From Chroococcidiopsis sp. TS-821 (lineage in GTDB: Bacteria; Cyanobacteriota; Cyanobacteriia; Cyanobacteriales; Chroococcidiopsidaceae): 64,000 bases of DNA. The translations under genes and the position numbers were made by a program. The stretch covers positions 124,001 to 188,000 of the forward strand of contig NZ_MVDI01000005.1 in the NCBI RefSeq assembly GCF_002939305.1. Reading direction: 5' to 3'. Positions 10,348-44,269 of this stretch are shown piece by piece (the stretch's first letter is position 1; every line of letters begins with the position of its first letter). The notes beneath the pieces are model-generated. The model was not told where the DNA came from. It searched no databases and saw nothing but the letters and a program-made list of their open reading frames with translations.

Positions 10348-10349
10348 TA

Positions 10350-27548: not shown

Positions 27549-28160
27549 ATGATCGACAAAACAGCTAAGACTCAATACCCAATTGACGACCTGCTGCGAC
27601 GGCGTTGGAGTCCGTTAGCATTTTCCGCGCGGATGGTTGAACCTGACAAGCTGCGCACTGTTCTAGAAGCCGCAAGCTGGGCAGCATCTTCTTTTAACGA
27701 GCAACCGTGGAGTTTTATCGTTGCAACTTCAGATAACAAGGTTGAATTTGAACGCTTGCTGAGTATTCTCGCCCAAGGAAACCAAGAGTGGGCACAGTAT
27801 GTCCCAGTATTAATGCTGAGTGTAGCAAAATTGCATTTCGAGCGCAATGGCAACGAGAATCGCCATGCTTTTCACGATGTTGGTGCAGCGGCTGCAACCT
27901 TAGCTATCCAAGCGACTGCACTAGGATTATTTATTCACCAAATGGCAGGATTTGACGTTGCTAAAGCAAAGGAGATTTACGGTATTCCTGAAGGGTACGA
28001 ACCAGTAGCCGCGATCGCATTAGGTTATCTCGGAGATCCACAAACTTTGTCAGATAAATTGCAGCAACGAGAAATGTCACCGCGCACTCGTAAGCCGCTA
28101 GAAACTTTTGTTTTCTCTGGTGGCTGGAACCAGCCTTCACCCCTAGTTAACCGTTCGTAA
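27549..28160 (+). CDS. Nitroreductase family protein
   Basis: FMN-dependent NAD(P)H oxidoreductase fold, 203 residues. The N-terminus RRRWSPLAFS carries the arginines that bind FMN phosphate. The block AASWAASSFNEQPWSFIV and the later PEGYEPVAAIALGYLGDP are typical of the family. It probably works as a cytoplasmic dimer; substrate unknown. The last 14 bases overlap the 3' end of the convergent GT2 gene, so the two transcripts share their ends. Confidence 0.9.
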   Translation: MIDKTAKTQYPIDDLLRRRWSPLAFSARMVEPDKLRTVLEAASWAASSFNEQPWSFIVATSDNKVEFERLLSILAQGNQEWAQYVPVLMLSVAKLHFERNGNENRHAFHDVGAAAATLAIQATALGLFIHQMAGFDVAKAKEIYGIPEGYEPVAAIALGYLGDPQTLSDKLQQREMSPRTRKPLETFVFSGGWNQPSPLVNRS

Positions 28161-28953
28161 TCGGTAAAATCTGCGGTGCATCGACACTGCGATCGCGCAT
28201 CGTCGTCGGTAATTCTTGATGATAAACGCCTGAAGGCAATACCCCACAGCCACCATAACGTGCCATGACTCGTAGTTGTGCGAGTACATCTTCGCCACAA
28301 GCTTGTGTTGGTAATTCTTGCCAAAAACGAAAACCGCCGACATCAAGTAGTTTTAATCTGTCATACAAAACGCACCCTGCAATCCAAGCAACGCGATATT
28401 TGCGCGGGCGATCGCACGTAATATGCAAGCGTTGTTGAATGTGATATAAATTAGCAGCATTATGCAGTTTCCAGCGTTCCCAAGCAGGAGTATTTGGTTT
28501 TACTAATTCTGGTGTTACAGGAGTATCCCAAAATTCAATTTGCTGTTCGTGCAAGCGAATATCGTGAAGAAAGCTAAGCCCGATAAATGCATTACCAACA
28601 AAGCCGCATTTTTCTGCGGCGATCGCTACTAATAAATTATGGACAACGTAAGACTCGCAAATAACATCATCATCTAAATAAAGAACATAGGGAGAAGTTG
28701 CTTTCTCTAAAAGAAATTGACGTTGTTGCGCGATACCACGTCGTGGTAAATTTTTGTAGACAATGATTTGATGACCGTGACTTTCAAGCACTCGAACTAC
28801 AGCTTGAACTTCTTTAGTTTGAATTGCATCTCGATCTTCAGTTTGATCGGAAATAATTATGCGAAAATCGCGGTAAGTTTGCGCGCAAAGACTTGTCAGC
28901 GTTACGGCTAAAGCAGCTGGACGGTTATAAGTAGGAATTAAAATATCAATCAT
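28147..28953 (-). CDS. Glycosyltransferase family 2
   Basis: GT-A fold inverting glycosyltransferase of 268 residues. IDILIPTYNRPAALAVTLTSL is the nucleotide-binding start, and VLYLDDDVI gives the DxD metal motif near residue 95. Last gene of the minus-strand glycan island, 12 bases after the GT9 gene; its end overlaps the nitroreductase gene. Donor and acceptor are unknown. No membrane helix, so it acts on the cytoplasmic side. Confidence 0.88.
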   Translation of the reverse strand: MIDILIPTYNRPAALAVTLTSLCAQTYRDFRIIISDQTEDRDAIQTKEVQAVVRVLESHGHQIIVYKNLPRRGIAQQRQFLLEKATSPYVLYLDDDVICESYVVHNLLVAIAAEKCGFVGNAFIGLSFLHDIRLHEQQIEFWDTPVTPELVKPNTPAWERWKLHNAANLYHIQQRLHITCDRPRKYRVAWIAGCVLYDRLKLLDVGGFRFWQELPTQACGEDVLAQLRVMARYGGCGVLPSGVYHQELPTTMRDRSVDAPQILPITNG

Positions 28954-28965
28954 CAGTTAGTTAGC

Positions 28966-30078
28966 CTAACGGCTGGTAATAGGTAACTGGTAATTGGATA
29001 CAGATGTTGAGGTGTTTGGAGATAGTAGTTCTAAGGTTGCATTGATGACAGTTTCGGGTTCTACTAAGCGCAAACAGTGATGATGTCCTTCGGGGCAAAT
29101 ACTTTTATAACAAATGCGACAAGGAACGTCGTGAAAGATAACGCGATTAGGAACTTGCCAAGGAGTATGTTGTGGATTAGTTAAAGCGTATAAATCAACA
29201 ACAGGCGTACCAACTGCGGCGGCGATGTGAACAGGCGCAGTATTGTTGGAAATTAATAAAGGGGCTGCGTCGATTAAAGCACTAAGTTCGCCTAAGTTAA
29301 GACGGTTAACGAAAGAATGCGATTGCGATCGCATCTTACCGCGAATGAATTCAACAAGTTCGATTTCAGATTCGGTTCCCGTGAAAACCACTTGAATGTC
29401 GTAATCGCGAACTAATTTTTCGGCGACAATTGCAAAACTTTCAGGAGGATAGCGGCGCGAAACCGCAGATGCGCCTGGGTGAATGACAACCCAAGGCTGT
29501 TGATGAATTTCTATTTCTCGCAATAACGATTGAATTGTGACTTTAGCGGCGTCTGGTATGCGTAGCTTTAAGCGTCGATCGGCAATGGTACTACCAACGC
29601 TAGCAACTAGATCGAGTTGGCGTTGCACTTCGTGACGGATAAATTGTTCCGGTTCGGGATCTTTAATCCAATGCGTGAGAAGTTGATAAGGATTTTCATG
29701 GCAATGCGCTAACGTCAATGGAATACCCGCCATATAGCATAAAAAAGCCGTTGGTAAAGGATTTTGACTGTAAACGGTGAAGATTACTGCTGCATCAAAA
29801 TCGCGTTCTCGCAATAAATTAATAATTGCATATTCTGGCTCGCTATTTTTCCGAGGTGCAGTTGCTTTTAACCAAGGAGAATCATAAACGATGACATCAT
29901 CAATATCAATTAATAAAGGCGCGATCGCACTTCCTGCACTTGAAGTCATTAAAGTAATATGGCGATCGCATTGCGAGTTTTTCAAGGCACTAATCGCAGG
30001 CGTTGTCATGAGTACGTCGCCAATTGTATCTAATCTCACGCACAAGATTTTTTTAGCGTCATTCCAAGTAGAATACAT
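28966..30078 (-). CDS. Glycosyltransferase family 9 (heptosyltransferase-like)
   Basis: 370-residue GT-B enzyme related to ADP-heptose:LPS heptosyltransferases. N-terminal motif VRLDTIGDVLMTTPAI carries the Asp expected to act as base. The C-terminal half has the donor-binding region SNNTAPVHIAAAVGTP and a Cys-rich stretch CRICYKSICP. It sits directly before hldE on the same transcript, which supports ADP-heptose as donor (inference). The last dozen codons (VSNYQLPITSR) are written by a GGTAATT-family repeat at 28971-29000, so the native C-terminus has been replaced or extended by repeat DNA. Confidence 0.9.
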   Translation of the reverse strand: MYSTWNDAKKILCVRLDTIGDVLMTTPAISALKNSQCDRHITLMTSSAGSAIAPLLIDIDDVIVYDSPWLKATAPRKNSEPEYAIINLLRERDFDAAVIFTVYSQNPLPTAFLCYMAGIPLTLAHCHENPYQLLTHWIKDPEPEQFIRHEVQRQLDLVASVGSTIADRRLKLRIPDAAKVTIQSLLREIEIHQQPWVVIHPGASAVSRRYPPESFAIVAEKLVRDYDIQVVFTGTESEIELVEFIRGKMRSQSHSFVNRLNLGELSALIDAAPLLISNNTAPVHIAAAVGTPVVDLYALTNPQHTPWQVPNRVIFHDVPCRICYKSICPEGHHHCLRLVEPETVINATLELLSPNTSTSVSNYQLPITSR

Positions 30079-30084
30079 GGCAAT

Positions 30085-31551
30085 TTAATGTGATGGTTGT
30101 TTCGTGAAAGTTTGATAAATCCGATTTACAATCGCCGTTGTCGAAATATTACTAACATAAGGAAGGATTTCTACTTTGCCACCTAATGATTCCACTAAAG
30201 GAACTTCCGGTAACATTTCTGGCGTATAATCTCCACCTTTAACGTAAATATCAGGACGTACAATTTCAATAAGTTCGCGCGGTGTTGATTCGGAAAAAGG
30301 AATGACATAATCGACACTTTCTAAAGCAGAGAGAATTGCCAAGCGATCGCTTAAACAATTCACCGGACGATTTTCACCTTTGAGTTGACGAATACTTTCA
30401 TCACTATTGACGCCAATAAGCAAAATATCGCCTAAGTTTTTTGCTTCACTCAAATAAGTTACGTGACCGCGATGTAATATATCAAAACAGCCATTCGTGA
30501 ATACAATTTTTTTGTGTTGTAGTTCTTGGATTAAACTTGCTAAGATTTTGCGACTATAAACTATTTTTTTATTACCAGAAAGTGACTGATGTAAAGCGGC
30601 TAAACTACAAGTTGTCGTTCCTGGTTGAGTGACAACAATCGCCGCCGCCGCAGCAGCAATCGACGTAGCAATTTCAACTTCTGTACCGCTTGCTAAAGCT
30701 AAGGTTAAACCAGCAACAAATGTATCTCCTGCGCCCGTTGTTTGACTGTTCCGCGCTGGTTGAGAAGGAATGAGGTAGGGGGACTTATTGCGCTCAAAAA
30801 CAACCGTTCCTTCGGCGTCTAGAGTGACAGCAGCAATTCGAGTATTAACTAATTTTAGTAAGCTTGCTCCATTATCTACAATTTGTTGAATTCGTACTTC
30901 GCCTTGTAAAGCTGGTAGCGCAAGAAGTTGAATTGCTTGTTGATAGTTTGGTTTAATTGCTGTTATATTAATCGCGCTAAATTGATTTAATTGCTTAGAA
31001 TCAACCGTAAAAATACGCGGATAAGTTTTCTGAAGTTGAGCTAAAGTTTGAACGATTCGCGGTGTAACAATTCCTCCGCCATAATCTGAAATAACGATAG
31101 CATCACAGCTAGGAAAAAGATGATGCAAATTATCAATTAATTTTTGTTCTATATCAAAATCAATACTTTCTGTACTACCGCGATCGCATCTTAAAAGTAA
31201 CTGCGAATCTGAAGTAATGCGCTGTTTGAGTAAAGTCTTTCTATGTGGCGATGTCACCAAATATTGCGTTGAAATGCCTTGATGCTGTAGTGTTGCTTTG
31301 AGGCGATTTCCTTCGTCATCATCACCGACAACCGAAAGCAAGATCGTATTTGCGCCTAAACGATTCAAATTAGCTGCGGTATTTGCCGCACCTCCAGGGA
31401 CATCCAAGCGATCGCCCATATCCACAATGGGAACAGGCGCTTCGCGACAAAGACGATGCGTTGTACCTTCTACGTAACAATCCAACATCGCTTCACCCAA
31501 CACCAAAACTCGCAAGTTCGCCCAGCGATCGAGATAATTTTCAGCAATCAT
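30085..31551 (-). CDS. hldE: Bifunctional heptose-7-phosphate kinase / heptose-1-phosphate adenylyltransferase
   Basis: 488-residue two-domain enzyme of ADP-heptose synthesis. The N-terminal ribokinase-type domain (about 1-325) has GGAANTAANLNRLGA and the catalytic TTGAGDTFVAG. It phosphorylates D-glycero-D-manno-heptose-7-phosphate at C1. The C-terminal nucleotidyltransferase domain (about 345-488) has NGCFDILHRGH with the HxGH motif and transfers AMP from ATP. Length and domain order match E. coli HldE. It lies six bases upstream of the GT9 gene and 18 bases after gmhB, so the three are probably one operon. Confidence 0.95.
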   Translation of the reverse strand: MIAENYLDRWANLRVLVLGEAMLDCYVEGTTHRLCREAPVPIVDMGDRLDVPGGAANTAANLNRLGANTILLSVVGDDDEGNRLKATLQHQGISTQYLVTSPHRKTLLKQRITSDSQLLLRCDRGSTESIDFDIEQKLIDNLHHLFPSCDAIVISDYGGGIVTPRIVQTLAQLQKTYPRIFTVDSKQLNQFSAINITAIKPNYQQAIQLLALPALQGEVRIQQIVDNGASLLKLVNTRIAAVTLDAEGTVVFERNKSPYLIPSQPARNSQTTGAGDTFVAGLTLALASGTEVEIATSIAAAAAAIVVTQPGTTTCSLAALHQSLSGNKKIVYSRKILASLIQELQHKKIVFTNGCFDILHRGHVTYLSEAKNLGDILLIGVNSDESIRQLKGENRPVNCLSDRLAILSALESVDYVIPFSESTPRELIEIVRPDIYVKGGDYTPEMLPEVPLVESLGGKVEILPYVSNISTTAIVNRIYQTFTKQPSH

Positions 31552-31569
31552 ATTTTTAACTTTATAAAT

Positions 31570-32148
31570 TTAATCAAGTGCTGTAATCACCTTGGCAGCG
31601 GCAGTTAAATCTTTCACAATATGATGCGGTAATCTTTGCCGAGATAATTGCCATTCGGTTTCATTACCGTTATCAATCAAGATAGTGCGACACCCCGCAA
31701 TATTACCTGCTTCCACATCATTGAGAATGTCTCCCACAAACCAAGATTGCAATAAATCAATGTGGTTTTCCTGCGCGGCTTTTTTGAGTAACCCAGGACG
31801 CGGTTTGCGACAATCGCAATCAATCGCAAATTCTTCAACAATTCCCTGCGGATGATGCGGACAGTAATAAAATCCCGAAATCGCCACGCCAAAATCACCC
31901 AACACCCGCCGTAAATGTTTTTCCACTGCTACCAAAGCACTTTCAGAAAAATACCCCCGCGCCACACCCGACTGATTCGTCACAATAAAAAGTTCATAAC
32001 CAGCCGCCGCCAACCTTTGCACCCCCTCCACTGCACCCGCACACAGCCGAATCTTCAGCGGATCGACATTGTAAGGAACATCCTCAATCAAAGTCCCATC
32101 CTTATCCAAAAAAACCGCCTTCACACTCCTCCTTCCTTTGTGCTTCAC
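31570..32148 (-). CDS. gmhB: D-glycero-D-manno-heptose-1,7-bisphosphate 7-phosphatase (GmhB-type HAD phosphatase)
   Basis: HAD-superfamily phosphatase of about 192 residues that removes the 7-phosphate between the two HldE steps. Motif I is FLDKDGT (Asp15, Asp17), then TNQSGVARG, and the zinc loop CPHH...CDC, which marks GmhB and histidinol-phosphatase relatives; the neighbours decide for GmhB. Motif IV is VGDILNDVEAG. Start: GTG at 32148 overlaps the upstream SDR stop as TAGTG, suggesting translational coupling. A TTG at 32157 is an alternative. Confidence 0.92.
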   Translation of the reverse strand: MKHKGRRSVKAVFLDKDGTLIEDVPYNVDPLKIRLCAGAVEGVQRLAAAGYELFIVTNQSGVARGYFSESALVAVEKHLRRVLGDFGVAISGFYYCPHHPQGIVEEFAIDCDCRKPRPGLLKKAAQENHIDLLQSWFVGDILNDVEAGNIAGCRTILIDNGNETEWQLSRQRLPHHIVKDLTAAAKVITALD

Positions 32149-32861
32149 TAAGGCCAAGAACTCTCCTTCATCGGTAAAACCATAATCTCAGCAATCACCG
32201 TCTCAGCCGGTTGCATCAGCAAATACAAAACAGTCTGAGCCACATTCTTGGGATCTTGCAAAGTCGTCATATCAATATCTGGAAAACGTTCCGTCAAAAA
32301 CGGAGTCTGCATTCCCCCCGCAACCACCGCCGTCACTTTGATATTGTGCGGTCTTCCCTCAACGTGCAACGCGTGCGAAAACCCCAACAAACCCCACTTA
32401 CTCGCATGATACGCCGAAGCATTTGCCCACGCTCGCTTAGCCGCAGTCGAAGTAATGTTAACAATATAACCACCTCCCTGCGATTTCATCGTGGGAAACA
32501 CAGCCTGCGACATCAAAAACGGTCCAGTGAGATTAACACCAAGAATGCGATTCCATTCTTGTACAGGCATTTCCTCAAGTGGAACCGTTAAATCGATCCC
32601 TGCATTGTTCACCAAAACATCAACTTTGCCATACTGCGAAATTACTTTATCCGTCACCGTTGCGACTTGTTCGCTATCAGCAACATCCAACGATACAGCG
32701 ATCGCATCCTTACCGTTTTGCCGCAAATCTTGCGCTACTTTTTCAGCTAATTCCACGCGAATATCAGCAACAACTGTAGTTATTCCCGCATCAGCCAAAG
32801 CATGACAAATCGCTTCGCCTAAACCCCGTCCGCCACCTGTAACAATCGCCACTTTTTGCAT
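32148..32861 (-). CDS. Short-chain dehydrogenase/reductase in the glycan island
   Basis: Classical SDR of 237 residues with GGGRGLGEA (about 8-16), NNAG, Ser in NITSTAAKR and the YHASK catalytic motif. It is not an extended SDR and lacks the features of the ADP-heptose epimerase HldD, so it should not be called that. It may reduce or oxidise a sugar or lipid intermediate of the pathway (inference). Its stop overlaps the gmhB start by one base. Confidence 0.85.
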   Translation of the reverse strand: MQKVAIVTGGGRGLGEAICHALADAGITTVVADIRVELAEKVAQDLRQNGKDAIAVSLDVADSEQVATVTDKVISQYGKVDVLVNNAGIDLTVPLEEMPVQEWNRILGVNLTGPFLMSQAVFPTMKSQGGGYIVNITSTAAKRAWANASAYHASKWGLLGFSHALHVEGRPHNIKVTAVVAGGMQTPFLTERFPDIDMTTLQDPKNVAQTVLYLLMQPAETVIAEIMVLPMKESSWP

Positions 32862-32892
32862 AATTCATCTCCTGTTAGTCGTTTGTAAGTAC

Positions 32893-32940
32893 TCTGGTAA
32901 TTGGTAATTGGTCATTGTCGAAAATACCTATTACCCCTTA
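32893..32940. repeat. Heptad repeat array, GGTAATT family
   Basis: CTGGTAATTGGTAATTGGTC is followed by the partly complementary CCTATTACCCC, giving an imperfect hairpin between the GT4-SIS fusion gene and the SDR gene. Confidence 0.7.
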
Positions 32941-34818
32941 CCCCACCAACTCCCTTTCCTGTTCTTGAATTTCGCTTACTGACAGCGGTACAGCTAATAA
33001 CTGCCCTTCGACCAATTCGCACAGCAAATGCAAAACCATTAATTGCACTTCTTGAATGCGTTGCGGATCGCTTGCGGGAACTAGAATTGCCGTATTCGCC
33101 AGGTCTAAAAGTTCGCCACCACTACCACCAATCAGCGCAATACAGTGAATATTCTGCTGACGTGCGGCGTGAAACGCCTGAACAAGATTGCGCGATCGCC
33201 CGCTGGTACTAATACCAATCAAAACATCGCCAGGTTGCGCAAAAGTTTTCACCTGTCGCGCAAACACATCTTCATACCCGACATCATTCGACCACGCTGT
33301 GACTAATGCTGTATCAGCCGTCAAGGCGATCGCAGGTAATCCAGCGCGATACGCACACCGAAACCGCCCGACAAATTCTGCCGCAAGGTGTTGTGCTTCT
33401 GCTGCACTCCCGCCGTTACCGCAAATCAAAACTTTGTTGCCTTGCGCGAAGCAATGACTTAACTGTTTTGCTGCTAAAATAATCGCGGGACTTAATGCCG
33501 TTTTTGCCGCTTGGAAAGCTTGAATTGCTTCATTAAAACTGCTTTCCACGATCGCCAACTCATTAAAACTACTCTCGCATTGCCGACTACCTGCCAAGAC
33601 CGATTCGTATAACGCCGCGATTTCACTCGTGACTTTTTCCCAAGTAAAACGCCCTTCGACGTGACGAATTGCTTGTCTACCGAGTAGTTGTAACAACGCT
33701 GGATTTTGAAACAAAAACGCCAAGCGATCGCCCAACATTTCCGGTTGATTCGGTGCTACTAAATACCCCGTTTCGCCATCTTTAACCGTAAACTTAATTC
33801 CACCAACGTTTGACCCAATTGCTGGAGTCCCGCACGCCATCGCCTCTAGGGGAGTAATACCAAACGGTTCGTACCAAGGAGTTGTGACAAAGACATCCGC
33901 TGCGCTGTAGAAATATTTGAGAATCTCGCGCCCCCGATTGCCAAAAAAGGTAACGCGATCGCCGATCCCCAACGAAGACGCGATCGCACTCAAGCGGGCA
34001 ATTTCTGGCGTTATTTGTGGGTTAGGAGTCTGCGACTCGCCGCCGACAATCAATAACCGTGCTGCGATTCCATGCTGTTTCACTAAATGAGCAAAGCCGC
34101 AAATTGCATTATCAACGCCTTTACGCGGTACTAAACGACCGAGTTGCAAGACAATCCGTTCATTAACAGGTAAACCCAAAACCAACCGCGCTTGCGATCG
34201 CTCGATTTGCCAAAATTCTCCACGATCGACTCCACAAGGAATTACCTCAATCTTGTTCGGATCGGCGTGATAGAGAGTCAGTAAATCTTCGCGGTCTTGG
34301 GGACACTCGGCAATAATCTTGTCAGCTTCGCGCACGATGCGGTCTTCAATTGCAAAGCGATCGTCAGGAAACTTATCCGCATCGCCTTGATAAAAACGAC
34401 GGACGCGCCCTAATGCATGAAACGTCACGACAAACGGAATACCTTTTTGTCGCTTAATTTCCGCCGCGACTAGCGCTGACATCCAGAAATTGGCATGAAT
34501 CAAGTCATAATTCCAGTGGCGATCCATAAACGCGATCGCCGCCATGGTAAATTCTCCCATGTACGGTAGCAACGCCTCTTTCGGCATCACCTGAGTAGCA
34601 CCGGCGGTAATGTGGACGATTCTCACGCCGTTATGCCACTCGACGATTTCCGGTAACTGGGGGCGATCGCGTCGTGTCAACACATCAACGCTGTAGCCAA
34701 GTGCAGCTAAGTGTTTTGCCACCTGACCGACGTAAACATTTTGACCGCCACTATCGGCTCCGCCAAAGATACCTAAAGGAGTGGCGTGTTCGCTAATTAG
34801 GGCAATGCGTTTCGTCAT
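32938..34818 (-). CDS. Fusion: GT4 glycosyltransferase + GmhA-type phosphoheptose isomerase (SIS) domain
   Basis: 626 residues. Residues 1 to about 415 form a GT4 enzyme: GGADSGGQNVYV near the start, then EPFGITPLEAMACGTP near 323. From about 425 to the end is a SIS domain of the GmhA type, which converts sedoheptulose-7-phosphate to D-glycero-D-manno-heptose-7-phosphate. It keeps GNGGSAAEAQHLAAEFVGRF and the four zinc/catalytic residues of E. coli GmhA as His477, Glu481, Gln589 and His597. Normally these are separate proteins. The fusion supplies the first step for HldE and GmhB encoded next door and ties heptose synthesis to one glycosyltransferase. Ten bases separate it from the next upstream gene. 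Confidence 0.93.
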   Translation of the reverse strand: MTKRIALISEHATPLGIFGGADSGGQNVYVGQVAKHLAALGYSVDVLTRRDRPQLPEIVEWHNGVRIVHITAGATQVMPKEALLPYMGEFTMAAIAFMDRHWNYDLIHANFWMSALVAAEIKRQKGIPFVVTFHALGRVRRFYQGDADKFPDDRFAIEDRIVREADKIIAECPQDREDLLTLYHADPNKIEVIPCGVDRGEFWQIERSQARLVLGLPVNERIVLQLGRLVPRKGVDNAICGFAHLVKQHGIAARLLIVGGESQTPNPQITPEIARLSAIASSLGIGDRVTFFGNRGREILKYFYSAADVFVTTPWYEPFGITPLEAMACGTPAIGSNVGGIKFTVKDGETGYLVAPNQPEMLGDRLAFLFQNPALLQLLGRQAIRHVEGRFTWEKVTSEIAALYESVLAGSRQCESSFNELAIVESSFNEAIQAFQAAKTALSPAIILAAKQLSHCFAQGNKVLICGNGGSAAEAQHLAAEFVGRFRCAYRAGLPAIALTADTALVTAWSNDVGYEDVFARQVKTFAQPGDVLIGISTSGRSRNLVQAFHAARQQNIHCIALIGGSGGELLDLANTAILVPASDPQRIQEVQLMVLHLLCELVEGQLLAVPLSVSEIQEQERELVG

Positions 34819-34827
34819 TGAATCAAC

Positions 34828-35778
34828 TTAAGCGATTGATAAACGTTCCACAACCGATAAAAATGCTGCATCCCAATCACGGATAAACCGTTGGATATTA
34901 AAGCGTTGTTGCGCTTGTTTTTTTGCACCCGCACTTAGGCGATGTGCTAAATCTGGATTGGCAATCAGTTCTTGCATCCGTGCCATCAAGCGATCGATAT
35001 TCGTATCGACATAACCTGAAACTCCGTTTTCGACAACTGTGACTAATTCCGTCGTTGCTAGACCAACGATAGGTAAACCCAGCATCATCGCTTCGCAGAC
35101 GGCTAAGCCTAAACTTGTATAGCGTACAGGGTGAAAGAAAAAGCGATATTGAGAAGCAAAAGCTGGTAACTGTGCGTGCGGAACTTCGCCTAATCCACCT
35201 AAAGATTCAGCATCCATCCCGACTAAATCTAAAGGTATCGAGTCGCGGACTTGCGTAAAAATATCAACTCCCAATCGGCGTCCGCGCCTGCGCAAATCGT
35301 TGGTGACAACCAAACCTTTCGCGAGTTCTCCGCTGTAACTAATATTTTCAGGTACAACCACACCATGCTCGATAGTGCGACTTGGCGATCGCCCGTTATC
35401 CCACATTAAGCGATTAAAATCGGTAACGTGAATTAACAACGCATTTGGATCGTCAACGATATGTTTGGTATTCGTTGGGTGTTCCTGCGGCGGATCGTGT
35501 TCTAAATAAAGGCAAGGTAACTGTTGCTGTGACTGCGACAAAATTTCGTATTGATCGTGCAAGTAATTTTTGCGCGACTGAAACAAGATACAGTCAAAAT
35601 CTAAATGACGCACTTCCTGCGCCGGAACGTCATGTACGTTATCTCCCCACGCAAAGCCAGGTAAACGTCCGCCATAGCCTTCAGGTTTGCCAGGTAATAC
35701 TGGTAAATAAAATTCATGGTTTGCCTGCGTGAGATAGTAAAGATAGCTGCCATGAATATGCCAAGTGAAGATTCGCAT
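34828..35778 (-). CDS. GT4-like glycosyltransferase
   Basis: 316-residue GT-B type transferase. The N-terminal half begins MRIFTWHIHGSYLYYL and has a YLEHDPP segment. The C-terminal half carries FFHPVRYTSLGLAVCEAMMLGLPIVG, the E-x7-E-like donor-binding region of GT4. Slightly shorter than most GT4 enzymes. It sits between a truncated GT9 gene (4 bases after that gene's end) and the GT4-SIS fusion. Acceptor unknown. Confidence 0.85.
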   Translation of the reverse strand: MRIFTWHIHGSYLYYLTQANHEFYLPVLPGKPEGYGGRLPGFAWGDNVHDVPAQEVRHLDFDCILFQSRKNYLHDQYEILSQSQQQLPCLYLEHDPPQEHPTNTKHIVDDPNALLIHVTDFNRLMWDNGRSPSRTIEHGVVVPENISYSGELAKGLVVTNDLRRRGRRLGVDIFTQVRDSIPLDLVGMDAESLGGLGEVPHAQLPAFASQYRFFFHPVRYTSLGLAVCEAMMLGLPIVGLATTELVTVVENGVSGYVDTNIDRLMARMQELIANPDLAHRLSAGAKKQAQQRFNIQRFIRDWDAAFLSVVERLSIA

Positions 35779-35781
35779 TGC

Positions 35782-36258
35782 TTAGAGGTTAGGGGTCAGG
35801 GATCGGAGGTCAGGGGCTACTGTAGATGGAAAGCCAACAGCATCTAATAAATAAAGATGAGGGTCGATTTTTGGTAAATCTTCTAAAGGTGGTTTGACCC
35901 AATGCGACAAAACGCTACCGCCAAATTCTTTTGATTGCCCTACACGGATTGGAATTCCGGCTAAATAACACAGATAGGCTAATAGATAAGGAGACTCAAA
36001 GCGATCGGTAAAAATAATTGCGGCATCAAATTGAAGAGTGTATATTTTTTTGATTAATTCTGTTTCTTTGGTTACATTTTGCCAATTTGTTGTATAGAAA
36101 ATAGTGCGTAACCCAATCGTGTCAGCTAAGTCTTTGTTTGTTATCAGTAAAGTCATCGCAGGGTAAGCTATCCTTAACTTATGCAATGCAGGCATCACCG
36201 CCAGATCGCCAACAACGACAACGAGTAAACGCTTGACCTTTTGCCAATCAATTTGCAT
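35782..36258 (-). CDS. Truncated GT9 glycosyltransferase (N-terminal half only)
   Basis: 158 residues against 330-370 for the family. The opening KRLLVVVVGDLAVMPALHKL aligns with the GT9 start but has lost the R-x-D-x-I-G-D base motif. FDAAIIFTDRFESPYLLAYLCYLAGIP and HWVKPP match the family. The whole donor-binding half is missing. The last 13 residues (TVAPDLRSLTPNL) are encoded by a GGGTCAG-family repeat at 35784-35820, so the gene ends inside repeat DNA. Probably a decayed paralogue still in the operon: its ATG overlaps the preceding GT9 by 11 bases. An accessory role is possible but unsupported. Confidence 0.75.
   Translation of the reverse strand: MQIDWQKVKRLLVVVVGDLAVMPALHKLRIAYPAMTLLITNKDLADTIGLRTIFYTTNWQNVTKETELIKKIYTLQFDAAIIFTDRFESPYLLAYLCYLAGIPIRVGQSKEFGGSVLSHWVKPPLEDLPKIDPHLYLLDAVGFPSTVAPDLRSLTPNL
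35784..35820. repeat. Heptad repeat array, GGGTCAG family
   Basis: Degenerate units GAGGTTA, GGGGTCA, GGGATCG, GAGGTCA, GGGGCTA in tandem. They encode the C-terminus of the truncated GT9. The same family is found at about 6183-6216, 54205-54236 and 62744-62770. Confidence 0.75.
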
Positions 36259-37267
36259 AGGCGACCTCGCGGTGCAAAAGGTCTTGTACTTCAGCTATGA
36301 CAGCCGCTACAGTATCAGCCGTAGAAGGCACGATAACTCGGTGGCGATCGCGATTTAACGGCGACCAGCGTTTGGGGTCAGAATTTGTGAAAATCACAAC
36401 ACTGTTGACTTCTAAAGCAGCGGCTAAATGCGAAACTCCCGTATCGTTGCACGCCAACAAAGCCGCATTTTTGAGTAATGCGGCTAACGCGCCTAAACTT
36501 GTTTGTCCTGCTAAGTTAATTGCAGACTTCTGCATCAACCCAGCAACCGTTTGAGTCAAATCTGCTTCTGCGGCGGTTCCAGTTAGAACAACTTCAAACC
36601 CCATTTCGCTTATGGCGTCAGCAACACGCGCAAAAGCCACAGGCGACCAACGGCGATCGCTGACACTCGCGCCAGGATGAACGCAGACATATTTCCCTGG
36701 TAACAAAAAACGAGTTTCAGGAATTTGCTGTAATTCCCACCAGTCTGACTTTAACAGTGGAAATTCTAAGTGTTCGCCTTGTAACGGTACACCTAAAAAT
36801 TCCATCAATTGCAGATGTCGTCTAACTTCTGGCGCGGATTCTGGATAAGCTAAAAATCGTTGAGGATCGGGGCAATAATGTTCTGGCAAGAAAAATCCAG
36901 CGTTGACTTTTGCACCTAATAGCACAGTAAATGAATTAATGACAATTCCACTACCATGCATCTGAAGTGCCAAATCAAATGCTTGCGCTTGCAGTTGTGC
37001 TAAACCATCATGAGTGCGTTGCGGCGAATGCCATCCTTCGGGAATTCCTGGATAGCCAGGAAACGCTAACCATGCATCTAAGTAGCAATCGAAGCGGCGC
37101 ACAAAGCTTTGCGCCCAAGGTAAGCCAATCAGAGTAATTTCCGCTTCTGGTAACGCAGTTCGCAACGCTCTAAAAGCTGGTACAGCGCAAAGGAGATCGC
37201 CCAGTCCTGGTAAACTACGTACTATTGCTACTCGCGATGGATTGCCAATGCGATCGCTCACACTCAT
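36248..37267 (-). CDS. Glycosyltransferase family 9
   Basis: 339-residue GT9 enzyme, full length. N-terminal motif VRSLPGLGDLLCAVPAFRALR; the catalytic-base Asp lies in GLGDLL. The C-terminal half has HPGASVSDRRWSP and LACNDTGVSHLAAALEV, the D-T-G-x-x-H donor site. First gene of the main glycan-island run; the 288-base spacer before it, shared with the DUF29 gene on the other strand, should hold the promoter. Confidence 0.9.
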   Translation of the reverse strand: MSVSDRIGNPSRVAIVRSLPGLGDLLCAVPAFRALRTALPEAEITLIGLPWAQSFVRRFDCYLDAWLAFPGYPGIPEGWHSPQRTHDGLAQLQAQAFDLALQMHGSGIVINSFTVLLGAKVNAGFFLPEHYCPDPQRFLAYPESAPEVRRHLQLMEFLGVPLQGEHLEFPLLKSDWWELQQIPETRFLLPGKYVCVHPGASVSDRRWSPVAFARVADAISEMGFEVVLTGTAAEADLTQTVAGLMQKSAINLAGQTSLGALAALLKNAALLACNDTGVSHLAAALEVNSVVIFTNSDPKRWSPLNRDRHRVIVPSTADTVAAVIAEVQDLLHREVAYAN

Positions 37268-37555: not shown

Positions 37556-38017
37556 ATGCAATCGATTCAGTTTGGTGAAGCAAATCATAGGCCAGATTAC
37601 GATACTGACTACGATGCGTGGTTGGCTCGTCAAATACATAGTTTACAGCATGCTCGCTGGCATGAAATTGATGTTCCTCATCTGGTTGAGGAGTTAGAAG
37701 GATTGAACAAAAGCAATGAGCGAGAGTTAGAAAGCTATTTAATAGTACTACTCGCGCACCTTCTTAAGTGGGAATATCAACCAGATAAACGTAATGGTAG
37801 CTGGGAGGCATCAATCAACAATAGCCGCAATCGAATTGCCAAGTTGTTTAAGCAGCAAAAATCGTTAGAAAAACGAGTGGCTGAATTTATTCCTGAAGCT
37901 TATCAAGAGGCTAAAGAATGGGCAAGCAAAGAAACAAAATTAAGAATAGATTTATTTGCCGAACCTTGTCCTTACTCAGTAGAACAGTTACAGGATAAGA
38001 ATTGGCTACCAGAATAA
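37556..38017 (+). CDS. DUF29 family protein
   Basis: 153-residue DUF29 protein, a family of unknown function abundant in cyanobacteria. Diagnostic blocks are YDAWLARQIHSL, DVPHLVEELEGLNKSNERELESYL and LLKWEYQPDKRNGSWEASI, ending with PYSVEQLQDKNWLPE. The protein is all-helical and soluble. It interrupts the minus-strand glycosyltransferase series on the opposite strand and is probably an independent insertion. Confidence 0.9.
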   Translation: MQSIQFGEANHRPDYDTDYDAWLARQIHSLQHARWHEIDVPHLVEELEGLNKSNERELESYLIVLLAHLLKWEYQPDKRNGSWEASINNSRNRIAKLFKQQKSLEKRVAEFIPEAYQEAKEWASKETKLRIDLFAEPCPYSVEQLQDKNWLPE

Positions 38018-38041
38018 AACTCGTGCTTTAGATAGTACCAA

Positions 38042-39160
38042 CTAATCTTTAGGACGCGGAACAAATAGCCGAGAAGCCTGTGGTTGACTGACTAGCTTGT
38101 GCCAGAGATGTTCGTAGCTACGTGTCATATGTTCTACAGTAAAAGAAGCTTGCGCGATCGCTCTACCTTTTTGCCCAAAATCCAAGCGTAATTCGCTATT
38201 ATCTCGCAGACGACACAGCGCCGCCGCCAAGCCAGCAACATCATTTTTATTCACTAAAAATCCAGTTTCACCATCCCTTACAGCTTCTGCAACGCTACCA
38301 ACACGAGTTGCGACTACAGGAAGCATCGCTAGCATCGCTTCTACAATCGCTAGGGGGAAGCCTTCCGATCGTGATGGTTGGACATAAATATCAAATTGTG
38401 ATAAATAGGGACGGGGGTTATCTAACCAACCGACGAACTCGACGCGATCGCCGATTTGTAAATCAATCGCCAATTTTTCTAATGCTGTTCGTTCGCCACC
38501 TTCACCGATAATGACTAATTTCACGCCATCCACCAACGCGATCGCGCGTAGCAGTACATCGTAACCCTTCATTGCATCCAACCGCCCCACGCTACCAATT
38601 GTTATCTCTTCAGTCTTGGTGGGAATATGTATAGTATCAGGAACGCCATTCGGAATCGAAAGCACACTATGACGACCGAGGGCGTAGAAATCTTCAAGTA
38701 ATCTTGCACTTGCTTCACCAACAGCAACGCTAGCATCCACTCGCAAACAAAGTACCCGCGTTCGCCACCACGTCAGCAAATCTGTAGTTCGCAACGGTAG
38801 TTGATCGACTCTCACTACTCGTGTATGAGGTAGCATGAGTGCAGCAAATTGTGCGATCGCACCTGCCCAAGGCGTACAAAGATTAATATGCACCACATCA
38901 GGATGGATAGCTAAAAATGCCGCTAAATGTGCAGGTAGTGCATATCTTGTACCAGGGATAACATATTTTTCGGCTTGAGGGCGTTTTTGGGCGATCGCGT
39001 CAACGACAACTTGAGATGTCCCTAGAATAACGATGTCAATATTATCTGCTACCGTCGCCACTAAGTGACTCAAGCTGATTTCTGCGCCACCAATTCCTGC
39101 TGAATCTGTGTAAACAACGACTCGAAGTGGGCGATCGCCATTAAATGTAGCTGATTTCAT
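38042..39160 (-). CDS. GT4 glycosyltransferase
   Basis: 372-residue GT-B retaining glycosyltransferase. The N-terminal half starts VVVYTDSAGIGGAEISLSHL. The C-terminal half has GSVGRLDAMKGYDVLLRAI, VQPSRSEGFPLAIVEAMLAMLPVVATRVG (E-x7-E) and VRDGETGFLV. It belongs to the glycan island but is separated from the GT9 genes by the plus-strand DUF29 gene. Substrate unknown. The GT4 gene and the regulator upstream are separated by a heptad-repeat hairpin. Confidence 0.9.
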   Translation of the reverse strand: MKSATFNGDRPLRVVVYTDSAGIGGAEISLSHLVATVADNIDIVILGTSQVVVDAIAQKRPQAEKYVIPGTRYALPAHLAAFLAIHPDVVHINLCTPWAGAIAQFAALMLPHTRVVRVDQLPLRTTDLLTWWRTRVLCLRVDASVAVGEASARLLEDFYALGRHSVLSIPNGVPDTIHIPTKTEEITIGSVGRLDAMKGYDVLLRAIALVDGVKLVIIGEGGERTALEKLAIDLQIGDRVEFVGWLDNPRPYLSQFDIYVQPSRSEGFPLAIVEAMLAMLPVVATRVGSVAEAVRDGETGFLVNKNDVAGLAAALCRLRDNSELRLDFGQKGRAIAQASFTVEHMTRSYEHLWHKLVSQPQASRLFVPRPKD

Positions 39161-39180
39161 AATGATACTTATTCATCTAT

Positions 39181-39248
39181 GCTGGTAACTGGTCATTGGT
39201 CATTGTCAAAAAACATCTATTACCTATTACCCATTACCCATTACCAAA
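39181..39248. repeat. Heptad repeat hairpin, GGTAATT/TTACCCA family
   Basis: CTGGTAACTGGTCATTGGTC on one arm and TTACCTATTACCCATTACCC on the other can pair into a long imperfect hairpin. It fills the space between the CdaR-type regulator and the GT4 gene. Confidence 0.75.
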
Positions 39249-39254
39249 TTATTT

Positions 39255-40436
39255 CTATTTATCCATAGTGTTATACCCTTGAAGTTTCCTTAGTAGCAGT
39301 GCCAACCGAATTTGTACAGCATGATCGAAACAGCGGGGATCTAAGCCTGTTAGCGAAGTTAATTTATCGAGGCGGTAATTCAACGTGTTGCGATGAATCG
39401 AAAGTTGTTTTGCGGTTGCAGAGAAACTACAGTTTTTCTCGAAAAATGTTTCGATCGTCATCAGTAATTCTGGTTCAGAGTCTAGCGGTGTGAGTAAATG
39501 CTTGGCGAGTTCTACTTTTGTTTGTTCGTCAGCTATACCAATAAATGCCGCAATTCCTAAACGATCCAAGCAATAAACTTGATTATTACCGTTAAAATGA
39601 TGACCTAGTGAAAGCGCCATTCGCGCGTCTTGGTAAGACCGCGCTAAACCCAGAATACCAGGATGATAGCGACCAATCCCAATACTGACAGCTGCGCCTG
39701 TATCATTACGCAAACGCAATAACAGCGAGTCACCTGCACGTTTAAGCGCGGTTAAGTTTGCCCATACAGCGTTGATCGATTCGGTATTTTTGCCATTTTC
39801 TGCCCAACTACCTAAATTCTTTGTGTCGCTGGCTTTTAAAACTGCGACTTCGCCATCACCTAAATGGGCACAAATTGTATCGTCGGGCAAATGAAAAAAG
39901 CTGACAACACTACTAATTACTAGTTGCGCGAGTCGGTGTTGATGCAATTCAGTTTCTGTGCGATCGCCAACATTGATTAAAATGACCGCGCGCGGAGGTA
40001 TTAAATTAAGTCCTAACAGTTTTGCCTGACGCAGAATTTCTGTTTCATCGACAATTTGACCGTGAAGTAAGTCATAAATAAACTGATTCTTTAGTACTTG
40101 CTTATTTGATTGATGATTCAGGACTGTTGCCTGATTAATGACTAATTCTATTAAGGCTTTTGCTAGACGTGGCGATACAGTTTCTCCGCTAAATGATTGT
40201 CCAACAATGACTTCACCTACCTCAGTTTTGCAGTATAAAGGAACGCTTATATAATCATTTGGTTGAGCGGTGCGGTCGAGAATCTTACCTACTCGCTCTA
40301 ATTCATTGCTAGCGATGATAATATTATTTTGATTGATAACGATCGCCTGCGCATTTAAAAGTTCAGTTACCGTATTAGCAACGTTACGCGCAACTTGAAT
40401 AAACTGTGTTGTATTAACAGAAAATTTAGTATTCAC
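39255..40436 (-). CDS. CdaR/PucR-type transcriptional regulator
   Basis: 393 residues in the order: N-terminal sugar-diacid-recognition-like domain (about 5-130), central GGDEF-like PucR region (about 140-310, with AAVSIGIGRYHPGILGLARSYQDAR), and C-terminal PucR-type helix-turn-helix (about 335-390, FSATAKQLSIHRNTLNYRLDKL). CdaR regulators sense glycerate or related diacids and activate their catabolic genes. No such catabolic genes are in the window, so its target is unknown; control of the neighbouring glycosyltransferases is possible. The 576-base spacer upstream is its likely promoter region. Confidence 0.9.
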   Translation of the reverse strand: MNTKFSVNTTQFIQVARNVANTVTELLNAQAIVINQNNIIIASNELERVGKILDRTAQPNDYISVPLYCKTEVGEVIVGQSFSGETVSPRLAKALIELVINQATVLNHQSNKQVLKNQFIYDLLHGQIVDETEILRQAKLLGLNLIPPRAVILINVGDRTETELHQHRLAQLVISSVVSFFHLPDDTICAHLGDGEVAVLKASDTKNLGSWAENGKNTESINAVWANLTALKRAGDSLLLRLRNDTGAAVSIGIGRYHPGILGLARSYQDARMALSLGHHFNGNNQVYCLDRLGIAAFIGIADEQTKVELAKHLLTPLDSEPELLMTIETFFEKNCSFSATAKQLSIHRNTLNYRLDKLTSLTGLDPRCFDHAVQIRLALLLRKLQGYNTMDK

Positions 40437-41012
40437 TGCACGTCTATTAATTAAAAGATTCGAATTTTCTTCGTATTTTCTTACACTAAATATTTGTGGG
40501 AGTGGCGCGTTTAATTTTCTTTTTTATTATTCAATATCTACTATAGGTATATCTGCGTCATATTTATGAATCAATTAATACTTTTGTTTGTATAAAACAG
40601 CCTTTTACCTATTCTAATAACAATTTTATTTATGTGTAGTGTTATTACGTAGAGGATTGCAAAAAAATATAAAGAAATCCCTAAATAATAAGCCTTTTAA
40701 AAAGCTAATTTTAATTGCAACTATCCAAAGGTTTATAAATTACTTTTACCTGCTTTGATATATTACGTATATATAGACTTTTCTGATGTATAAAATACTA
40801 TAATCATCATTTGATACCATTCTACTAAATGAGAACTATAATTATCTCCTCTGCTCCTAAAGCCCTTCTGCTGCTGAAGCTGCCTCTTTTTAGCCACTTC
40901 AAAGTAAAACGGTATGAGTTGTAAGAGTGTTTTACATTAAACTTTACTCAAACACCCGCAAAAGTCCTAGCAAAGGGCTTACAATGTTAGCCGATTAAGA
41001 ACAAACTTATTT
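40437..41012. other. Intergenic region (576 bases)
   Basis: Very AT-rich, no coding frame. It contains the MITE-like element at 40814-40915. Further right, AAGTCC (40962-40967) and GGGCTT (40975-40980) form a weak stem that, read on the minus strand, is followed by TTTTGC. It may end the transcript of the GT4 gene at 41013. Confidence 0.5.
40814..40915. repeat. MITE-like element with imperfect terminal inverted repeats
   Basis: ATACCATTCTACT at 40814-40826 and AGTAAAACGGTAT at 40903-40915 are inverted repeats matching at 11 of 13 positions. They enclose about 76 bases with a CTCCTCTGCTCC-type pyrimidine run and no coding capacity. No target-site duplication is obvious. Confidence 0.45.
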
Positions 41013-42239
41013 TCAGTTTGCAAAACTAGCTTGTAGCATTTGATAAATATCGAGATGTTGTTTGACAATAAAAGACCAACTAAAGCGATGGGCAAAAAGG
41101 CGACCTGTCGTACTGAGGCGATCGCGCAATTGCGGATTGCAAACGAGTTTAAGTAAAGCTTCTGTCAATGCTTCCACATCGCGCGTGGGTATAAATTCTA
41201 GTATCTCATCCGACAAATCAGGATCGGGAGGAGTCGCGCGAGTCGCGATCGTGGGTAAACCATGCGCCAGCATTGCGAGTAACGAGCCGCTTTTGAGCGT
41301 TACACCATGATTAAACGGTAAAACTCCTATATCAGCACCTGATAGGGAATAAGACGCTGATTTCGTCTCAACGTATCCTGTCATCGCTACTTGGCGAACA
41401 AGGTTCAGTTGAGTTATGAGTCCTTGTAACTTATTCCAATACTGCTTTGCTTGTGCTTCCGGTAACGCGAGACTTTCCACACCGCCGATTAAGATCAGCC
41501 TAACGTGCGGATTTTGCACGACAACTTTTGCGAAGGCTGATAAGAGATACTCAATGCCTTTGACAGGATGCAGAAAACCGAAAAAGGCAATAACTAAAGC
41601 ATCTGACGACCAATTATAATGTTGCCGTAGTTGCTGCTTTGCTTGTTGGCGGTCAATCGGCGCGACTTCAATATTTGCCGCGATCGCGATTCGATGTAAA
41701 CGGTTTGCATAGTGCGGTAAGCGTTGGAGAATCACCTTTTCTGCTGCGGCGTTGGTAGTAATAATTGCATCGCTACCAGTTAATAAAAAACCATCTTCGC
41801 GATCCCACCATCGCTGCTTTTGTCCCCATACTTTCAGCCATTCCATCATTTGAGGAGGAATAATCGGGGGTTGCCATTCCCACCAGCCATACTCGTGTAC
41901 TGTCGTCACAATCGGTTTTCGGTAGCCGCAAATTCGCAACAGAAGAGGTAATAGGAAAATCGCCCGTTCAAAGCTGTATGTTCCGGCGGCGTGTTGAATG
42001 TGCAACAGGTCTGTTGGTGTTGCGATGATAGCCTGTACTAGCGGCAATAATTGCGTTAATCCCCAGTCTTTGACAACTCCCCTGACATCAGTTTCATCCG
42101 CAGGTGCTGCAACTTTGGTAGTAAGAACAATCGACTCAACGCCGTATTGAGCGAGTTCGCGGCGCAAACACATACTGTAATGAGCAATACCACAGCGATC
42201 GCTTTGATAAGCACCAGTAATCAGCGTAATTTTAGTCAT
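41013..42239 (-). CDS. GT4 glycosyltransferase
   Basis: 408-residue GT-B enzyme. The start at 42239 gives MTKITLITGAYQSDRCGIAHY and overlaps the stop of the double-GT9 gene as ATGA, so translation is coupled. The frame opens 19 codons earlier inside that gene, without family character. Core motifs: AFFGFLHPVKGIEYLLSAF, ADIGVLPFNHGVTLKSGSLLAMLAHGLP and the C-terminal FSWSFIVKQHLDIY. Sugar and acceptor unknown. Confidence 0.9.
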   Translation of the reverse strand: MTKITLITGAYQSDRCGIAHYSMCLRRELAQYGVESIVLTTKVAAPADETDVRGVVKDWGLTQLLPLVQAIIATPTDLLHIQHAAGTYSFERAIFLLPLLLRICGYRKPIVTTVHEYGWWEWQPPIIPPQMMEWLKVWGQKQRWWDREDGFLLTGSDAIITTNAAAEKVILQRLPHYANRLHRIAIAANIEVAPIDRQQAKQQLRQHYNWSSDALVIAFFGFLHPVKGIEYLLSAFAKVVVQNPHVRLILIGGVESLALPEAQAKQYWNKLQGLITQLNLVRQVAMTGYVETKSASYSLSGADIGVLPFNHGVTLKSGSLLAMLAHGLPTIATRATPPDPDLSDEILEFIPTRDVEALTEALLKLVCNPQLRDRLSTTGRLFAHRFSWSFIVKQHLDIYQMLQASFAN

Positions 42240-44269
42240 CGACTCAGCAGTTCTAATCCCGCAGCCACAATTTGGGTGGGTGAAATATCCAAACACTCTA
42301 ATTCATACGGGCAACTAAAGGTATAACAAGGATTACAGACTGTTGGACGACGCAAAATTTTTACTGCTGCATAACGAGGTTGCCATTGACATTCGAGTTC
42401 GGTTCCCGCAAAGAGAACCACGCTAGGAGTATTCGTAGCATCAGCGATGTGCATAGCTGAAGTATTATTCGTTAAAACGAGTCGAGCATGAGCGATCGCC
42501 GCAGCAAATTCTGATAAACTTGTTGCACCAATTCTATTAATCGCCCAATCGCCTAAAATGTCGAGTAGCGGATGAGCGCGATCGCTATCTTTAGATGTTC
42601 CTGTCACAACGATTGGTAATTTTGTGATTTCAGCAAGTTGACGCGCGGCGATCGCAAAGCGTTGTGTATCGTAGTTACGCGACTCACAACTTGTCCAAGG
42701 GTTCAGCAGAATGTAAGGATAAGGAAACGGTGCAGGATCGCAAATGTGTAAGCTTAAACGGCGATCGCTGACTTGAAACCCTACCGATTCAATCAAACGT
42801 AAATTGCGCTCGACTTGGTGAATTTCATCCGGTGCAGGAGTGATAGAATTAGTTAAAATCCCCAACCCTGACTCTTTCGATTCGCCCAAGCGTAAGGGGA
42901 TACCTGCTAGATAACACGCTAAAGCCGCTGGATAAGGACTTTGGCTAAAACTTGTTAAGATAATTGCCGCATCAAACTGCCTTTGACGCAACATCTCAAT
43001 CATTTCCCACTCTCTAGCCGGATCGAAATCCAAGCGTCCCAAATCTTGCCAAACGACGCGCCAAGGTATGACTTCATCTACCCAAGGTAAAAGCGGTGCA
43101 GTTGACGCCCCAGCAGGACTTACCATCAAAGTCAACTTTGCTTGCGGGAGGTTTTCTTTGATACTGCGAAGGACAGGGCTAGTCATAATCACATCGCCAA
43201 TATTATCGAGTCGCATTACCAAAATGTTGCGAAGATTTTGCCATTGGTTGGTAATTTCTCGATTTACTGGTAGTGTCAGCGGCGATCGCTGTTTTTGTAA
43301 TAACACTGCGGCTGCACTCAAGACTTGTTGCGGCGTAATTTCTTGCGTACAGCTATCCCACTCAAACGGACAAATCCCACTATACCAGCAACTTTGTTCG
43401 GTGAAATTAGCAATATTTCGCTCGCTGCAATCAAGATAACCTTGTAGATTGACATGAGGTGTCGGTTGACCGTAGCGCCCGTGCCAAGATGGACCAAATA
43501 ACGTAATTGTAGGCACATCCAGCGCTGCTGCAATTCTTGCAGGTCCTGTATCAACAGCAATTGCCAAATCGGCTTGGGCTAAACCTGCTGCCAATTCGCG
43601 CAAAGTTCCCCGCTGCCAAACGCGGGTGCTTTCACCGATTTCTTGAGCAATTTCACAGGCAAATTCATCTCCTCCTGCAACAACAATTGTCGCGTTATAC
43701 TGCTGCTGTAAGGCTTGGGCGACTGTCACAAAATTGACTTTCGACCAGCGCTTAATTTGCATTCCCGCATCAGGAATCAAAAAAACAATCGGGCGGTATG
43801 CCGCACCAAACGTTCGTTTAGCTTGCGCTATTTCAGCTTCTAGCAAGTAAATCAATGGCTTGACTTCAGAAATCACCTCCGGTGCAATTAAGCCCTCTTG
43901 TTGCAGAATTTGCAAAAAGCGATCGCCCACCAACTGATCGTCAGGAGGGTTGCGCCATAGATTTGTCACAGTACGTTGCGCGCCACTCTCACGAATGATA
44001 TCTGCAATTCCACCGTAGTTAGTATCAGAAACAACAATATCAAAATGCTGTTGCGCTAGCATTTGGGCGATCGCTTGACGCACTTCACCCTTTTGAGCAT
44101 AAACAACCTCATAAATCAGAGGGTCTGCTTTGAGTAGTTCGCCATAAGGAGGAAAAGTTAGAACTGTAACCTGAGATTGAGGATAAGTCAGAGCCAGCGC
44201 TTTAATAGCAGGTAGCGCAATAATCAGATCCCCAATTCCCCCTAACAACTCCACAAATAAAATTTTCAC
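42236..44269 (-). CDS. Double GT9 glycosyltransferase (two heptosyltransferase-like domains fused)
   Basis: 677 residues made of two complete GT9 modules. Module 1 (about 1-335) starts LFVELLGGIGDLIIALPAI and has IAVDTGPARIAAALDVP, where the usual donor-site His is replaced by Arg. Module 2 (from about 351) starts VMRLDNIGDVIMTSPVL and has TNNTSAMHIADATNTP, keeping the His. Both modules end with Cys-rich C-terminal strands (CWYSGICPF; CNPCYTFSCPYELEC). The protein could add two sugars in succession, or module 1 may have lost donor binding. It is translationally coupled to the GT4 gene that follows. Confidence 0.9.
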   Translation of the reverse strand: MKILFVELLGGIGDLIIALPAIKALALTYPQSQVTVLTFPPYGELLKADPLIYEVVYAQKGEVRQAIAQMLAQQHFDIVVSDTNYGGIADIIRESGAQRTVTNLWRNPPDDQLVGDRFLQILQQEGLIAPEVISEVKPLIYLLEAEIAQAKRTFGAAYRPIVFLIPDAGMQIKRWSKVNFVTVAQALQQQYNATIVVAGGDEFACEIAQEIGESTRVWQRGTLRELAAGLAQADLAIAVDTGPARIAAALDVPTITLFGPSWHGRYGQPTPHVNLQGYLDCSERNIANFTEQSCWYSGICPFEWDSCTQEITPQQVLSAAAVLLQKQRSPLTLPVNREITNQWQNLRNILVMRLDNIGDVIMTSPVLRSIKENLPQAKLTLMVSPAGASTAPLLPWVDEVIPWRVVWQDLGRLDFDPAREWEMIEMLRQRQFDAAIILTSFSQSPYPAALACYLAGIPLRLGESKESGLGILTNSITPAPDEIHQVERNLRLIESVGFQVSDRRLSLHICDPAPFPYPYILLNPWTSCESRNYDTQRFAIAARQLAEITKLPIVVTGTSKDSDRAHPLLDILGDWAINRIGATSLSEFAAAIAHARLVLTNNTSAMHIADATNTPSVVLFAGTELECQWQPRYAAVKILRRPTVCNPCYTFSCPYELECLDISPTQIVAAGLELLSR

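Follow-up and report, generated by a model that had tools for sequence, protein, structure and literature searches.

A conserved bacterial island predicted to supply ADP-heptose and to build a heptose glycan, in Chroococcidiopsis and across phyla

Heptose is usually treated as a sugar of the lipopolysaccharide (LPS) inner core, and the ADP-heptose of Gram-negative bacteria as a signal to the innate immune system. Here we describe an island of heptose and glycosyltransferase genes at positions 28147-44269 of a 64,000-nucleotide stretch (the window) of the 5.23-Mb genome of the cyanobacterium Chroococcidiopsis sp. TS-821 (contig NZ_MVDI01000005.1); all of its genes lie on the minus strand, to which the island coordinates below refer. 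This heptose glycan locus is real and conserved, has apparently not been described before and, judging from its sequence, probably makes ADP-heptose and builds a heptose oligosaccharide other than the LPS core. Each of its parts comes from a known family; new are the gene arrangement, the fusion of a GT4 glycosyltransferase to the sedoheptulose-7-phosphate (S7P) isomerase GmhA, a separate clade of HAD phosphatases and a spread beyond LPS-bearing bacteria. No paper describing the locus or a role of ADP-heptose in cyanobacteria was found in the open-licence PubMed Central (PMC) literature, which is weak evidence of absence.

In the route that we propose, the GmhA half of the fusion would isomerise S7P, HldE would phosphorylate and then adenylylate the heptose and the HAD would take off the 7-phosphate, functions assigned from family and residues. 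The GT4 half, which resembles sucrose-phosphate synthase (SPS) and MshA, would use a sugar phosphate as the starting point of a chain that a short GT4, the GT9 proteins GT9a, GT9b and double GT9, and a GT2 would lengthen, with the GT9s drawing on ADP-D,D-heptose.

Organization and spread of the island

Family searches bore out the gene content and coordinates that an earlier sequence-only reading had given for the island. Nine tightly packed genes (28147-37267) are separated by intergenic gaps of only -11 to 76 bp and therefore read as one operon, whose order on the coding strand, 5′ to 3′, is GT9b, a half GT9, the short GT4 (GTx), the GT4-GmhA fusion, a short-chain dehydrogenase/reductase (SDR), the GmhB-like HAD, HldE, GT9a and GT2. 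Past the operon, up to 44269, the island continues with two more GT4 genes, the gene of a PucR/CdaR-like regulator and the double GT9.

A one-genome-per-species scan with the fusion gave 80 loci, to which one family relative was added. Gene order and content recur across these 81 loci at protein identities of roughly 33-75%, which places the arrangement beyond chance. On the same strand, the GT4 is followed by the HAD in 72 of the 81 loci and the HAD by GT9a in 66; 63 loci have the short GT4 upstream. The island had been read as specifically cyanobacterial, which it is not, as nine named phyla carry it: Bacteroidota, Cyanobacteriota, Pseudomonadota, Chloroflexota, Planctomycetota, Myxococcota, Acidobacteriota, Actinomycetota and one candidate phylum. 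Contig ends and masked stretches limit claims of absence in this comparison.

Within the Cyanophyceae, the fusion occurs in 50 of 390 sampled genomes and 25 of 160 genera, and the cyanobacterial island GT4s cluster together on the tree, with the exception of one contig from a metagenome-assembled genome (MAG). A NodU-type carbamoyltransferase (a label given from its sequence, without a family search) and a GT2-like gene are frequent in the islands of Bacteroidota, Chloroflexota and Betaproteobacteria; cyanobacterial islands lack the carbamoyltransferase and, in its place, have additional GT9 and GT4 genes and a PucR-like regulator. Recent foreign acquisition was rejected, composition giving no signal (GC content of 44-45% in the island and 43% elsewhere).

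Several loci deviate from the common form. Two anammox Planctomycetota (L105 and L107) have a reduced island of GT9b and GT4, with the short GT4 too in L105, and without HAD, GmhA or HldE in cis. One cyanobacterial island (L046, genome G185) is split between two contigs, one bearing the fusion and the other GT9a, the HldE kinase and the HAD. The islands of two MAG contigs, labelled Chloroflexaceae (L058) and Proteobacteria (L064), fall among or close to those of cyanobacteria and Chloroflexota; these contigs are possibly misbinned.

Predicted supply of ADP-heptose

The active sites for all four steps to ADP-heptose are intact in the window proteins, for which activity is predicted. To this extent the earlier claim that GmhA, HldE and GmhB cover the route from S7P held; HldE and the HAD, however, score below their equivalog cut-offs, and the HAD belongs to a clade separate from GmhB. 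The GmhA/SIS half of the fusion (about residues 421-610; gene at 32938-34818) keeps the ligands H477, E481, Q589 and H597, which are conserved in 47-48 of 50 fusions; the zinc and catalytic residues of E. coli GmhA are H61, E65, Q172 and H180. HldE (30085-31551), a heptose-7-phosphate kinase and heptose-1-phosphate adenylyltransferase with PfkB and CTP_transf_like domains, scores 380 bits against NF008454 (NCBIfam equivalog cut-off 521). Its GAGD and HxGH motifs are intact, as in all 48 island HldEs, and so is the STT motif of the window copy. The motif (F/L)xxGxSTT reads YVSNISTT in the window protein, without the STTR5 arginine, so that ADP is its likely nucleotide; this arginine, which lets other heptose nucleotidyltransferases use CTP or UTP (PMC11461863), is present in 27 of the 48 island HldEs. 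A GDP-heptose pathway was rejected because the nucleotidyltransferase is of the HldE C-terminal type.

The HAD phosphatase (31570-32157) has the catalytic D18/D20 and the Zn ligands C99, H101, C114 and C116, all conserved across 74 relatives, and reaches 160 bits against NF006506 (cut-off 178). On the tree, the island HADs form a clade of their own that includes neither E. coli GmhB nor the canonical GmhBs of the same genomes (SH-aLRT 94, from a short tree search). Since the HAD is kept in 19 of the 22 islands that lack cis copies of GmhA and HldE, and also in five Proteobacteria that encode a canonical GmhB elsewhere in the genome, its link to the GT4 appears as close as that to HldE. In one Oxalobacteraceae locus (L116, 6500-12800), canonical gmhA, hldE and gmhB genes lie together on one strand and the island genes for GT4, SDR, HAD and GT9a on the opposite strand, so that two GmhB-like genes stand about 5.5 kb apart.

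The sequence-only reading had noted that HldD, the epimerase needed for the L,D form, is missing from the window and had suggested the D,D form of the sugar. This extends to the whole Chroococcidiopsis genome, in which no HldD above cut-off was found (best match 117.5 bits, cut-off 274.6) and which also gave no PF04413 match for WaaA, the Kdo (3-deoxy-D-manno-oct-2-ulosonic acid) transferase. Because of these two absences, ADP-D,D-heptose is the predicted donor. HldD above cut-off is likewise missing in 31 of the 33 island genomes searched. The SDR of the operon (32148-32861; PF00106, 204.5 bits), which occurs in 48 of the 81 islands and is nearly absent from Bacteroidota, was rejected as an HldD, being a classical SDR by family profile.

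The heptose supply accompanies the island, even in trans. An HldE-type kinase of more than 240 bits, in or outside the island, was found in 23 of 24 genomes searched, most of them with islands that lack GmhA or HldE. Among the Cyanophyceae, a heptose nucleotidyltransferase is encoded in 45 of 50 fusion-positive and 93 of 340 fusion-negative genomes (Fisher p 9.6e-18, not corrected for kinship), and all bifunctional HldE frames (27/27) belong to fusion-positive genomes. Because nucleotidyltransferase genes occur in 138 of the 390 sampled Cyanophyceae (35%), ADP-heptose capacity alone is unsurprising in this group; stand-alone HldC-type genes are present in many island-free cyanobacteria, S. elongatus among them.

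The GT4-GmhA fusion and its relation to SPS and MshA

The GT4 half (residues 1-411) is joined to GmhA by a disordered linker (412-420) in the predicted structure of the fusion, which has a pLDDT of 87.5. By sequence, this half is nearest to SPS (6kih) and MshA (3c48); 6kih is also the top Foldseek match of its model (TM 0.90 by target length). All 79 island GT4s fall into one clade (support 99) beside SPS and MshA and outside the SPS clade itself. Tree, residues and model agree in placing the GT4 half as a sister of SPS and MshA. In SPS, the acceptor phosphate is held by the basic pair R105/R178 (PMC7264703), to which K80 (79/79) and R154 (74/79) of the island GT4s correspond. The triad K80/H134/R154 is missing from the other GT4s of the Chroococcidiopsis genome except its SPS; as that SPS is separately encoded, the island GT4 was rejected as the organism's own SPS. 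At the positions of Y110 and T134 in MshA, near the acceptor phosphate, all island GT4s carry F111 and A135. The fused state was gained or lost about 11 times on the GT4 tree.

These features invite a sharper form of the proposed route rather than its opposite, in which the GT4 would be the heptose counterpart of SPS: it would glycosylate heptose 7-phosphate, or S7P, from the fused GmhA, the HAD would remove the 7-phosphate and the resulting glycosyl-heptose core, in the style of sucrose or trehalose, would be extended by the GT9s with ADP-heptose. The kinship with two enzymes that have sugar-phosphate acceptors, the basic pair and triad, the HAD gene that follows that of the GT4 in most loci, and the persistence of this HAD without cis GmhA/HldE or beside a canonical GmhB are all consistent with it. 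We nonetheless regard it as a tentative proposal with a minor chance of being correct, as the F and A of the island GT4s imply that acceptor binding differs from that of MshA, the GmhA fusion is missing in about a third of the islands, and no second GmhB was found in the Chroococcidiopsis genome, so that there this HAD has to act in the nucleotide pathway as well. Just as tentative is the wider idea that one such pathway crosses phyla, with an SPS-like GT4, fed by the fused GmhA, that would glycosylate heptose 7-phosphate, a GmhB-derived HAD that would remove the 7-phosphate and GT9s that would extend the product with ADP-D,D-heptose, giving a class of non-LPS heptose glycosides in LPS-bearing and LPS-free bacteria alike.

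The island product and LPS

We consider it unlikely that the island adds heptose to cyanobacterial LPS, be it to the core or the O-chain. LpxC is present in the cyanobacterial island genomes, that of Chroococcidiopsis included, and both D,D- and L-glycero-heptose have been reported from the LPS of Spirulina platensis, but heptose is absent from most analysed cyanobacterial LPS (PMC4515613), the lack of WaaA points away from a standard LPS inner core, and homologous islands occur in LpxC-negative genomes. The sequence-only reading had described the LPS of model unicellular cyanobacteria as poor in or devoid of heptose; a general absence of heptose from cyanobacteria would be too strong a rule, given the Spirulina LPS and the nucleotidyltransferases of the Cyanophyceae and S. 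elongatus.

LpxC was not found in the island genomes of five Chloroflexota, one Thermoleophilia and one Nannocystis, negatives that may mislead because Nitrosospira Nsp2 has no LpxC match either, and some genomes are probably incomplete or masked. The island is thus distributed beyond lipid A carriers. In its Chloroflexota and Thermoleophilia carriers, where LpxC is missing, the product is evidently something other than LPS; taken over all carriers, it is probably not LPS. The argument that a dedicated heptose set indicates an undescribed glycan gains from the dedicated supply with intact active sites and from these LpxC-negative carriers, but loses in that the capacity for ADP-heptose is not special among cyanobacteria.

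GT9 proteins and their donor

Five GT9 domains had been counted in the island, of which Pfam sees four. These lie in the heptosyltransferase-like GT9a (28966-30078; PF01075, 96.9 bits; 66/81 islands) and GT9b (36248-37267; PF01075, 108 bits; 65/81 islands) and in the two tandem domains of the double GT9 (42236-44269; PF01075, 147 bits over two stretches), which is two separate genes in Nostocales relatives. The GD motif with the catalytic Asp is present in all GT9a, GT9b and double-GT9 domains; a conserved His is found in 67 of 67 GT9a and 65 of 66 GT9b proteins, but 6 of the 10 first domains from double GT9 proteins, that of the window among them, have Arg in its place. We infer ADP-D,D-heptose as the donor of these proteins.

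The putative fifth domain (35782-36258; 158 amino acids) comprises only the N-terminal half, without the donor domain, and was rejected as a full GT9 transferase. It is 33% identical to the second domain of the double GT9 (residues 342-498) and could be either a remnant that has been retained or a subunit with an accessory role. Many cyanobacterial islands hold a half GT9 at the same position, and a longer GT9 stands there in Chloroflexota and Acidobacteriota (L068, L086).

Several observations weigh against the proposed route. The usual D of the donor motif is N in 67 of 67 GT9a proteins (and in 20 of 26 second domains of the double GT9), and, except for the double GT9 against TIGR02195, the GT9 proteins do not reach the equivalog cut-offs for heptosyltransferases (GT9a 128.5 bits against TIGR02195, cut-off 134.6). 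To these are added the separate clade of the HADs, the missing LpxC match of Nitrosospira Nsp2 and one MAG island genome (L133) without a convincing HldE kinase. The changed donor motif and the low scores, together with the GT9 genes of the control S. elongatus, would also fit GT9s that use other donors, with the ADP-heptose of HldE serving another purpose and the island being an ordinary exopolysaccharide cluster. We consider this unlikely too, since the operon itself contains HldE and GmhA, which are also linked to the island genome-wide, and just one of the five GT9 matches in the Chroococcidiopsis genome lies outside the island.

Other genes of the island and the window

The last gene of the operon encodes the GT2 (28147-28953; PF00535, 66.5 bits), found close to the GT4 in 23 of 81 islands, and the short GT4-like GTx (34828-35778; PF00534, 45 bits) is present in 72. 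Beyond the operon, the cyanobacterial extension comprises GT4c (38042-39160; PF00534, 135 bits), with relatives beside several cyanobacterial islands, and GT4d (41013-42296; PF13692, 56.6 bits), which holds the same position in several of them. Between the two, the PucR/CdaR-like protein (39255-40436; PF13556, 73 bits) is a probable regulator of the island; its gene stands beside 13 of 81 islands, mostly in Cyanobacteriota and Chloroflexota.

On its flanks the island has ligA, a gene for a nitroreductase and genes of ordinary metabolism. The window open reading frames that were scanned include no recognisable flippase, polymerase or exporter of polysaccharides. Across the islands compared, no island-specific exporter emerged other than an ATP-binding cassette (ABC) exporter that accompanies the island in some Oxalobacteraceae. 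A PADLOC search for defence genes gave no match in four proteins of the island or its flanks. Elsewhere in the window, a bacteriorhodopsin-like gene (10281-11153; PF01036) is close to a luciferase-like monooxygenase gene, and three open reading frames of 495-666 amino acids (15377-17377, 25942-27429 and 51526-53115) have no Pfam match.

Implications and comparison with known systems

If the proposed route is correct, a widespread heptose glycan has been overlooked that is supplied and used by a conserved locus in at least nine phyla, LpxC-negative Chloroflexota included. The locus turns the purpose of ADP-heptose in cyanobacteria and other environmental bacteria into a testable question, and the GT4-GmhA fusion offers a single-protein entry point.

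With the ADP-heptose pathway of Gram-negative LPS (GmhA, HldE, GmhB, HldD), the island shares the first enzymes, their conserved active sites and the predicted sugar nucleotide. It differs in lacking HldD, in the fusion of GmhA to a GT4, in the clade of its HAD, in a genome without WaaA and in its occurrence in LpxC-negative genomes. Compared with SPS (TeSPS, 6kih) and MshA, the island GT4 forms a sister clade with the same fold, the same catalytic H and E and the basic pair for the acceptor phosphate, but is only about a third identical, has F/A for Y and T or S near that phosphate, and is fused to an isomerase in an organism with a separate SPS.

Other systems also make use of heptose. Protein heptosylation of the Aah/TibC type was rejected for the island, as GT9b reaches 22.7 bits against the TIGR04414 cut-off of 200 and no autotransporter target was seen; this system and septacidin synthesis (PMC11461863) nevertheless exemplify the use of heptose by transferases outside LPS, as proposed here. 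The psc1 capsule locus of Rubrivivax (PMC3684757) has GDP-heptose enzymes (gmhA, gmhB, wcbL, wcbM) rather than HldE, Wza/Wzx/Wzy export genes and a gmhA listed as a separate gene, and resembles the island in that its heptose supply genes adjoin glycosyltransferases.

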